Notes under the pieces: generated by a model | What the model saw: only the letters and a program-made list of their open reading frames with translations | Databases searched by the model: none | Told to the model about the DNA's origin: nothing | Shown: one piece after another, positions 276 to 979 of the stretch | Position numbering within the stretch: the stretch's first letter is position 1 | Layout: each line of letters starts with the position of its first letter | From: an uncultured Tateyamaria sp. | GTDB taxonomy: Bacteria; Pseudomonadota; Alphaproteobacteria; Rhodobacterales; Rhodobacteraceae | Direction: 5' to 3' | Assembly (NCBI RefSeq): GCF_947494755.1 | Contig: NZ_CANLVZ010000001.1 | Coordinates: 1 to 64,000 of the forward strand | Length of the DNA stretch: 64,000 nt | Translations under genes and position numbers: made by a program

Positions 276-303
276 CTTTGTGTTCACCTTCGTGAACACA
301 AAG
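276..303. other. Perfect 12-bp inverted repeat at the 3' end of the sRNA array
   Basis: Arms ctttgtgttcac (276-287) and gtgaacacaaag (292-303) pair perfectly around a 4-nt loop. On the minus strand the hairpin begins inside the T-rich tail of the second cuckoo-type hairpin (300-307). It may be a final processing or termination structure of that transcript. It could equally be a protein-binding palindrome. Confidence 0.7.
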
Positions 304-385
304 AAAACGGCGACCCCAGGGAGGAGGGGCCGCCGCTCTTGCAACATCGCGTCGGTCAGGGAGGAGGAGGACCGGTGGCGATGTG
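298..385 (-). ncRNA. Cuckoo (CcsR-like) sRNA, distal copy
   Basis: Read on the minus strand this is two consecutive hairpins, each exposing a CTCCTCCC loop. The first pairs 370-383 with 345-357: a 6-bp CATCGC/GCGATG outer stem plus GGTC/GACC inside. The second pairs 326-335 with 308-317 with a single A.C mismatch, and is followed by TTTTCTTT as in an intrinsic terminator. Paired hairpins with CCUCCUCCC loops behind a DUF1127 gene define the CcsR or cuckoo RNA family of Rhodobacteraceae, which is stress-induced in Rhodobacter sphaeroides. Ends are estimated from the hairpins. Confidence 0.82.
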
Positions 386-414
386 TCTCGTGATGCACCC
401 GTCAGTGGGCGCGG

Positions 415-500
415 AATAAAAGGTGCGGCGACGTCAGGGAGGAGGAGGACGCCGCCGCCAATTTACAGATGCCCCAGGGAGGAGGAGAGGGACATCTGAT
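415..500 (-). ncRNA. Cuckoo (CcsR-like) sRNA, proximal copy
   Basis: This has the same two-hairpin plan as the distal copy. The first stem pairs CAGATG-CCC (466-474) with GGG-A-CATCTG (489-498) around a loop containing CTCCTCCTCCC on the minus strand. The second stem pairs 448-458 with 425-435, with one A.C mismatch at the same relative place as in the distal copy, and is followed by TTTTATT. It begins about 10 nt after the stop of the DUF1127 gene, so it is probably cut from the 3' part of that mRNA, as described for ccaF1-ccsR in R. sphaeroides. Confidence 0.82.
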
Positions 501-508
501 CTCGGTGT

Positions 509-742
509 TCAGTGCGCAGCCGTGCCGTGGGCCGACTCCCAAGCGACGCGCTTGAGTTCGGAGCGGTGCATGCCCAGGTCAGCCAGCTCGCGGTTGGACA
601 GGGCATCCAACTCGCCCAGTGTCGTACGATAGATGCGGTTCTGTGCGCGCTTTTCGGCGGCGGTTTCCAGAATGCGGGCGGCTGTCCCAAGGATCCGCTC
701 AAGCAGATCGCTGCGGGTGTTGATATCGTTGTAATAGGCCAT
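509..742 (-). CDS. ccaF1: DUF1127 family small protein (CcaF1-like)
   Basis: A 77-aa protein with the DUF1127 (YjiS-like) signature: a basic helical segment ending in L-G-E-L-D-A-L-S-N-R-E-L-A-D-L-G, then M-H-R-S-E-L. Family members are small, Arg-rich and often stress-induced. The R. sphaeroides relative CcaF1 is reported to bind RNA and to be cotranscribed with the CcsR sRNAs. Here two CcsR-like sRNAs follow the stop codon directly, which supports the same operon. The ATG at 742 has CGAGG 8 nt upstream. The function here is inferred from the family and the locus. Confidence 0.82.
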   Translation of the reverse strand: MAYYNDINTRSDLLERILGTAARILETAAEKRAQNRIYRTTLGELDALSNRELADLGMHRSELKRVAWESAHGTAAH

Positions 743-786: not shown

Positions 787-814
787 AACATAAGTGAATG
801 CTGCGCTTGCACAA
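787..814 (-). promoter_or_regulatory. Possible promoter of the DUF1127-cuckoo RNA operon
   Basis: On the minus strand TTGTGC (814-809) and TATGTT (792-787) are separated by 16 nt, about 45 nt upstream of the start codon. The equivalent Rhodobacter operon is driven by the heat-shock sigma factors RpoHI/RpoHII. I cannot tell from sequence alone which sigma factor would use this site. Confidence 0.35.
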
Positions 815-979
815 TGCTTTCTGCGGCAATGCTGCTATGCAGCAATTGCATGGGGTTACGGTTGAAAACTTGTGCGGACCGCCCAATGAACTGGCAATGA
901 TGTCGCGGCTGTGCCGGTGTCTCTTGTGCGCGCTGCGAAATCTGCCAGTTAATGCGGCACCCGAGCGGAGAAATGCACC

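Follow-up and report, generated by a model that had tools for sequence, protein, structure and literature searches.

A CcsR-type RNA operon behind a DUF1127 gene in Tateyamaria and its inferred control by an LsrB/VtlR-type regulator

The window examined here, the initial 64 kb of contig C1 in the 4.1-Mb genome of an uncultured Tateyamaria sp., holds, close to the contig start, a short DUF1127 gene followed by a series of hairpins, which raises the question of what kind of RNA is encoded there and what might switch it on. Our preferred answer, to which we give a probability of roughly 0.7, is a CIN1-type stress-RNA operon under the inferred control of an LsrB/VtlR-type regulator. It builds on the genes and hairpins of the locus, covariation in the first hairpin pair, a conserved promoter block, and the presence and phylogeny of the regulator.

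The DUF1127 gene (509-742, minus strand) codes for a CcaF1-like small protein of 77 amino acids, whose reading frame (742-509) matches Pfam family PF06568 (E 1.6e-9; 37.8 bits, cut-off 23.3), and is one of four DUF1127 matches in the whole genome. Orthologues of the protein occur in 18 other Tateyamaria loci, and its closest named relatives are Tateyamaria records, the best of 22 loci reaching 94% identity; with the DUF1127 protein of the Rhodobacter sphaeroides-like locus L023, a locus whose RNA scores above the CcsR1 cut-off, it shares 38% identity over 73 amino acids.

Behind this gene, the motif CCTCCTCCC occurs at 319-327, 359-367, 437-445 and 477-485, its only four sites in the 64-kb window and all on the minus strand, against a mean of 0.56 and a maximum of 3 in 100 shuffles of the window. 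The sites belong to two minus-strand hairpin pairs. The first CcsR-type RNA (420-503) comprises hairpins 498-466 and 458-425, with CCUCCUCCC in either loop; the second (302-386) comprises hairpins 384-344 and 338-305; and a small motif-less hairpin (395-412, minus strand, seen in the fold of 508-297) separates both RNAs. The first pair folds with -39.5 kcal/mol (507-417, z -5.3), the second with -43.5 kcal/mol (387-297, z -5.6) and the whole stretch 508-297 with a z-score of -7.7, and in each case none of 200 shuffles was as good. The last hairpin is followed by UUUUCUUU (299-339, minus strand), and this hairpin with its U run, the sole terminator-like site in positions 1-1100 (shuffle average 1.1), is the probable intrinsic terminator of the operon. 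Its anti-Shine-Dalgarno (aSD) motif lies in the loop and upper stem and is less exposed than the others, because the stem absorbs part of it (-28.0 when folded freely, -19.1 if the motif is forced open).

Cuckoo RNAs are described as two to four adjacent hairpins with CCUCCUCCC in each loop (PMC3927594), and the association of CcsR RNAs with a DUF1127 gene has been labelled the CIN1 locus (PMC10253847/PMC8307010). The window shows adjacent hairpins with such loops in two pairs, the motif of hairpin 4 being partly in the stem, next to a short DUF1127 gene and, for the first pair, a structure conserved over 18 distinct sequences with variable stems; the hairpin RNAs add a member to the known cuckoo/CcsR (CIN1) group. 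The covariance models agree with this placement: the CcsR1 model (RF02791) matches the two pairs with 43.5 bits (E 4e-9) and 31.0 bits (E 2e-5), and the ar14 model (RF02344) with 48.1 and 36.6 bits, the matches of both models to both pairs ranging from E 4e-9 to 6e-5. Both pairs miss the gathering scores (65.3 for RF02791, 58.8 for RF02344), so that a default Rfam scan of the window comes back empty and both pairs fall outside the narrow Rfam family RF02791. When the whole genome was searched with CcsR1 (150 of 1684 first-look candidates scored), the next match after the two in the window had E 1.7 and lay far below them. At a lax limit of E 10, some CcsR1 match was found in 12 of 14 control genomes, none of them over the cut-off, and in 61 Rhodobacteraceae genomes ar14 matched 51 at E ≤0.1 and exceeded its cut-off in 11.

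The earlier note on this DNA had described four minus-strand CCUCCUCCC-loop hairpins in two pairs behind a DUF1127 gene, which motif sites, folds and Pfam confirm, and had likened them to the ccaF1-CcsR operon, a likeness supported by the DUF1127 gene and the two aSD hairpin pairs. The covariance-model check that it proposed yielded the two CcsR1 matches given above, both under the gathering cut-off, and its count of two RNAs with four motifs was borne out, four motifs being normal within the genus.

A DNA match to the locus was found in 19 of 20 Tateyamaria genomes, the own genome included (18 of the 19 others, with four to six motifs). Counted over these 19 loci, the window among them, six have four motifs, three have five and ten have six, and hairpin loops hold 98 of the 99 genus motifs; for isolated CCTCCTCC sites of the loci examined the count is 14 of 31. 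When the first pair was aligned (alignment A1, 18 distinct sequences), 96.7% of cells were paired; structures slid out of place gave only 32-57%. Both sides had changed at six of 20 base pairs, and of 500 shuffles none reached four of the five covariation measures, with 20 reaching the fifth (pair types). Helix 1 loses two of its base pairs, one in five and the other in seven sequences. The loop motif is fixed, and the stems vary.

Across the Rhodobacteraceae, a DUF1127 gene and the motifs could be placed together in 39 of 42 loci, two of which are the same locus (L047 repeats L025 and was counted here, and left out of the promoter model described below); three loci (L014, L050 and L055) were left out of the 39, gene and motifs not both being placeable by script. 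In hairpin loops lay 303 of 311 family motifs, with 2 to 17 per locus, numbers that are lower bounds, many loci being truncated at 1.5 kb. Alignment A2 does not include L074. One locus, L020, carries at least 17 CCTCCTCC hairpins behind a single DUF1127 gene, against four in the window.

Two characterized systems are among the closest. The ccaF1-CcsR1-4 operon of R. sphaeroides likewise has a DUF1127 gene directly ahead of tandem RNAs of two hairpins each, with the same motif in the loops, and a 3' terminator (PMC10253847, PMC8307010), but has four RNAs where the present locus has two, with a CcsR1 score below the cut-off here; the R. sphaeroides-like L023 contains ten motifs, not eight, and its promoter box, exact in the window, is degenerate (11 of 13 positions). 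The ar14/NfeR1 RNA of Sinorhizobium meliloti also displays CCUCCUCCC in each loop and has an LsrB-bound TGCA-N6-GCAT promoter motif (PMC10746234), but it combines three hairpins in one RNA, the window stays under the ar14 cut-off, and the text of PMC10746234 names no DUF1127 gene.

The region upstream of the operon offers a candidate for its control. A VtlR/LsrB-type box, CAATGCTGCTATGCA (TGCATAGCAGCATTG in operon sense), lies at 827-841 on the plus strand and agrees at 13 of 15 bases with CAATGCAGCCATGCA, the motif that PMC12595884 gives for VtlR. At 837-850 on the minus strand follows an exact TGCA-N6-GCAT (T-N11-A), the LsrB motif published for S. meliloti nfeR1, where it stands at -72 to -60 (PMC10746234). 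A second conserved block, ATTGTGCAnnnGCAGCAT (787-815, minus strand), contains another TGCA-N6-GCAT at 811-798, and the probable -10, TATGTT, was assigned by eye at 792-787 on the same strand; a sigma-70 promoter scan gave no match. TGCA-N6-GCAT taken alone is no evidence, since it occurs eight times in the window with 4.9 expected, and against the consensus GCAT-N3-TG-N3-T one specified position of the block differs, here and in most family loci. Both the conserved promoter block and the probable regulator lie outside the stretch covered by the earlier note.

In aligned Tateyamaria upstream regions the box block, which reads ATGCA-N5-TGCATRGCRGCATTG in operon sense, is far more conserved than its surroundings. 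Scored over 13 positions, the box is complete in 19 of 19 Tateyamaria loci; among 29 loci from other Rhodobacteraceae, one per genus, 20 score 13, five 12, three 11 and one 10; ten additional loci from named genomes comprise six exact boxes, two at 12, one at 11 and one at 10; and of the three loci left out above, L014 and L050 are exact and L055 has 11 of 13. Shuffles averaged 8.6, reaching at least 11 in 1.7% and 10 in 12% of cases, and the maximum in downstream control sequence was 10, attained in one of 39 loci. Read in the opposite orientation, the nearly palindromic box still scores at least 10 in 16 of 39 promoters. In L012 and L053 the box has only the background score of 10 of 13, and these two loci were omitted from the promoter model. 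Since this locus and a single published motif served to define the box, the family counts test its conservation and not the identity of its binder. In an alignment of 39 promoters, from which loci below 11 of 13 were omitted, 22 of 71 columns are invariant, eleven of them inside the second block, and this block (TTGTGCA-N3-GCAGCA) together with the probable -10 keeps a nearly fixed distance from the box block.

Searched as a 13-base pattern, the box has three exact occurrences in the genome and 241 with at most two mismatches, against 28 for the reversed pattern. One of the other exact boxes, at C7:55079 (L081/L184), has neither a DUF1127 gene nor CCTCCTCC behind it and was set aside as a probable chance match; the third is at C9:125524 (L082). 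On the minus strand of L081 (1552-2261), a frame resembles, by eye, a ZIP-type transporter in two pieces.

In Rhizobiales, VtlR/LsrB activates AbcR RNAs, NfeR1 and DUF1127 genes (PMC12595884, PMC7486931, PMC8844928, PMC11975290, PMC10746234), and LsrB has been called unique to that order and placed in an operon with trxB (PMC11975290). The present genome nevertheless contains an orthologue of this regulator, an LsrB-type LysR gene at C1:169909-170811 (protein L136), assigned by clade and by similarity to Agrobacterium LsrB. Synteny with trxB failed as a route to it: a LysR gene lies directly behind trxB in 15 of 30 loci examined in the class (out of 53 trxB matches), and the trxB of this genome (C2:110362) has other genes on both sides, so that L136 was identified by similarity. 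Of the 30 LysR-type proteins that the genome was found to encode, L136 is the closest to Agrobacterium LsrB (239 bits and 41% identity; next 132 bits), and all 15 trxB-linked LysR proteins have it as their best match (38-52% identity for 14 of them, 23% for the divergent L118). Its DNA-binding part is identical at 51 to 56 of 65 positions to that of four compared proteins and at 48 of 66 to that of Agrobacterium LsrB, whose chain is PDB 9HH1 (PMC11975290), the best PDB match of L136 (E 6.7e-71; next 1.9e-29). In a phylogenetic tree from which L118 was omitted, L136, Agrobacterium LsrB (9HH1) and 14 trxB-linked proteins form one clade (support 100/98), which holds L136 alone among the 30 LysR-type proteins of the genome. 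Of 61 Rhodobacteraceae genomes, 59 encode the regulator (the own one, 57 at 50-79% identity and one as a fragment), as do all 56 good assemblies; its counterpart in the R. sphaeroides-like genome G034 has 71% identity. Another LysR gene, which neighbours a further DUF1127 gene (C5:21978 and C5:22271), was rejected as the regulator since it falls outside the LsrB clade, its own placement being unsure on a long branch; in the locus in question (L165, C5:20000-25000) these two genes are divergent.

L136 retains none of the four cysteines that Agrobacterium LsrB has in the aligned part; its sole cysteine is residue 190, and the redox input may therefore differ; the signal to which the regulator responds may accordingly not be that of Agrobacterium LsrB. 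Behind the regulator gene (L166, C1:167000-174000) a TGCA-N6-GCAT site is followed by a match to SorX (RF02784; 53.7 bits, cut-off 46.6), and in five other regulator loci of the family SorX scores above the cut-off in four and just below it in one; in the R. sphaeroides-like L222 no SorX match was found behind the regulator gene. The arrangement resembles that of S. meliloti, in which AbcR1 and AbcR2 adjoin lsrB (PMC7486931/PMC8844928/PMC11975290/PMC12595884). Unlike the operon in the window, the SorX element is a separate locus with one short RNA and no DUF1127 match nearby, yet it too lies downstream of a TGCA-N6-GCAT site. Set against the Rhizobiales VtlR/LsrB regulon (PMC12595884, PMC7486931, PMC8844928, PMC11975290), the present case shares the regulator clade, a near-identical box and targets of the aSD sRNA and DUF1127 type, and differs in belonging to the Rhodobacteraceae and in a regulator gene that stands apart from trxB and is followed by a SorX-type element.

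A sequence-only model built on the 39 promoters found one strong site in the own genome, with E 3e-16 against 0.008 for the runner-up (150 of 1827 candidates scored). Across the class, it matched at E 0.05 in 99 of 289 genomes, most matches being weak (17 candidates per genome scored among the matches listed). Of 26 loci examined outside the family, seven have a DUF1127 gene or an sRNA-like element beside the site: two a DUF1127 gene, four a CTCC-rich terminated segment and one, L213, an mmgR match over the cut-off (13 of the 26 loci were scanned with Rfam). The six best (L196-L201) include four with a CTCC-rich segment and an intrinsic terminator and one with a DUF1127 gene, and the remaining L199 has neither; in L211 the DUF1127 gene is on the opposite strand. 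Nothing fitting was found at 19 of the 26 loci, Rfam again covering 13 of the 26, and many of these sites are probably due to chance. Terminators follow the site in four of 26 loci and in none of 26 control regions, and CTCC occurs 33 times against 17 in the controls. The regulator was found in eight of nine chosen genomes, one of the nine from the Rhodobacteraceae, and not in G171, the genome of L199. In three genomes the site comes directly after the regulator gene, the box beginning 41 (G272), 89 (G303) and 78 bases (G080, a weaker site with E 0.031) past the stop codon, with a CTCC-rich segment and a terminator after it; the listed sites of G352, G298, G263 and G120 do not directly adjoin the regulator gene in this way.

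The most serious competing explanation, which we regard as unlikely, is that the CIN1 locus is driven by RpoH-type sigma factors alone and the conserved block serves another DNA-binding protein or the divergent mrp gene. The ccaF1 gene of R. sphaeroides is reported to have an RpoHI/RpoHII promoter (PMC10253847/PMC8307010), and the R. sphaeroides-like L023 scores just 11 of 13 box positions. Moreover, a divergent mrp gene stands upstream in all 19 Tateyamaria loci and in 29 of the 36 Rhodobacteraceae loci tested (L006, L007 and L054, with exact boxes in all three, were excluded for too short upstream sequence), and the block therefore sits within a shared intergenic region. All 29 loci with mrp have box scores of at least 11, and the boxless L012 and L053 are both among the seven without it, which leaves a role for mrp conceivable. 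The block is nevertheless kept in five of those seven (four exact, one at 12 of 13), and sites like it are found in other families ahead of DUF1127 genes and sRNA-like CTCC-rich segments, three of them directly behind an LsrB-type gene. The near-fixed spacing between the block and the probable -10 of the operon also counts against this explanation.

Less probable again is that the hairpin pairs are mainly a platform that binds or titrates the DUF1127 protein, and not antisense RNAs. The linkage of gene and hairpins in 39 of 42 loci would suit such a role, as would the finding that R. sphaeroides CcaF1 binds RNA and influences CcsR maturation (PMC10253847/PMC8307010); a motif fixed in the loops above variable stems argues against it, and S. 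meliloti NfeR1 with its three aSD motifs mutated lost silencing of a target fusion (PMC10746234). That the hairpins are chance C-rich repeats of G+C-rich DNA that happen to fold, as scores under the Rfam gathering cut-offs might suggest, is so improbable that we reject it, given the motif count, the fold z-scores, the covariation, the conservation and the placement of the motifs in loops.

Under the preferred reading of an LsrB/VtlR-controlled CIN1-type operon, its transcription, binding, processing and targets, as read from the DNA, would run as follows. The regulator encoded at C1:169909-170811 would bind the box at 827-850 and activate the promoter with its -10 near 792-787, where a stress sigma factor perhaps acts with it, as in R. 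sphaeroides. A single transcript would span the DUF1127 gene and both hairpin pairs, stop at hairpin 4, and be cleaved to give an mRNA and two CcsR RNAs. The CCUCCUCCC loops of the latter would pair with the Shine-Dalgarno regions of several mRNAs, and the DUF1127 protein would tune RNA processing and stability. The promoter evidence would thereby add a specific regulator that does not appear in the operon model in the published text available to us, and no link of VtlR/LsrB to CcsR or to DUF1127 control in Rhodobacterales was found in the limited collection of literature searched.

If this reading of the promoter is true, the stress RNAs of marine and phototrophic Rhodobacteraceae and the AbcR/NfeR1 RNAs of Rhizobiales answer to one transcription factor and one box. 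It could be tested in R. sphaeroides, in which CcsR targets and phenotypes are known, and would correct the view, stated in PMC11975290, that LsrB is unique to Rhizobiales. We lean, somewhat less firmly, towards a broader proposal: the LsrB/VtlR-type LysR protein may be a core regulator in many Alphaproteobacteria that ancestrally activated DUF1127 genes and aSD sRNAs, the main strong target in Rhodobacteraceae being the DUF1127-CcsR operon and an sRNA often lying directly behind the regulator gene. AbcR, NfeR1, CcsR and SorX would then be branches of one circuit.

Repeated sequence adjoins the operon. Directly behind the terminator hairpin lies a perfect inverted repeat, TTTGTGTTCAC-CTTC-GTGAACACAAA (277-302), and at the contig start (1-300 of the window) a 90-bp unit occurs twice in tandem with 98% matches. 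The unit has an internal inverted repeat around CTGCTTTCTG/AGAAAGC and looks like a REP-type palindromic element; related copies are found at 236-296, at C5:273180 and C1:232525, and in relatives.
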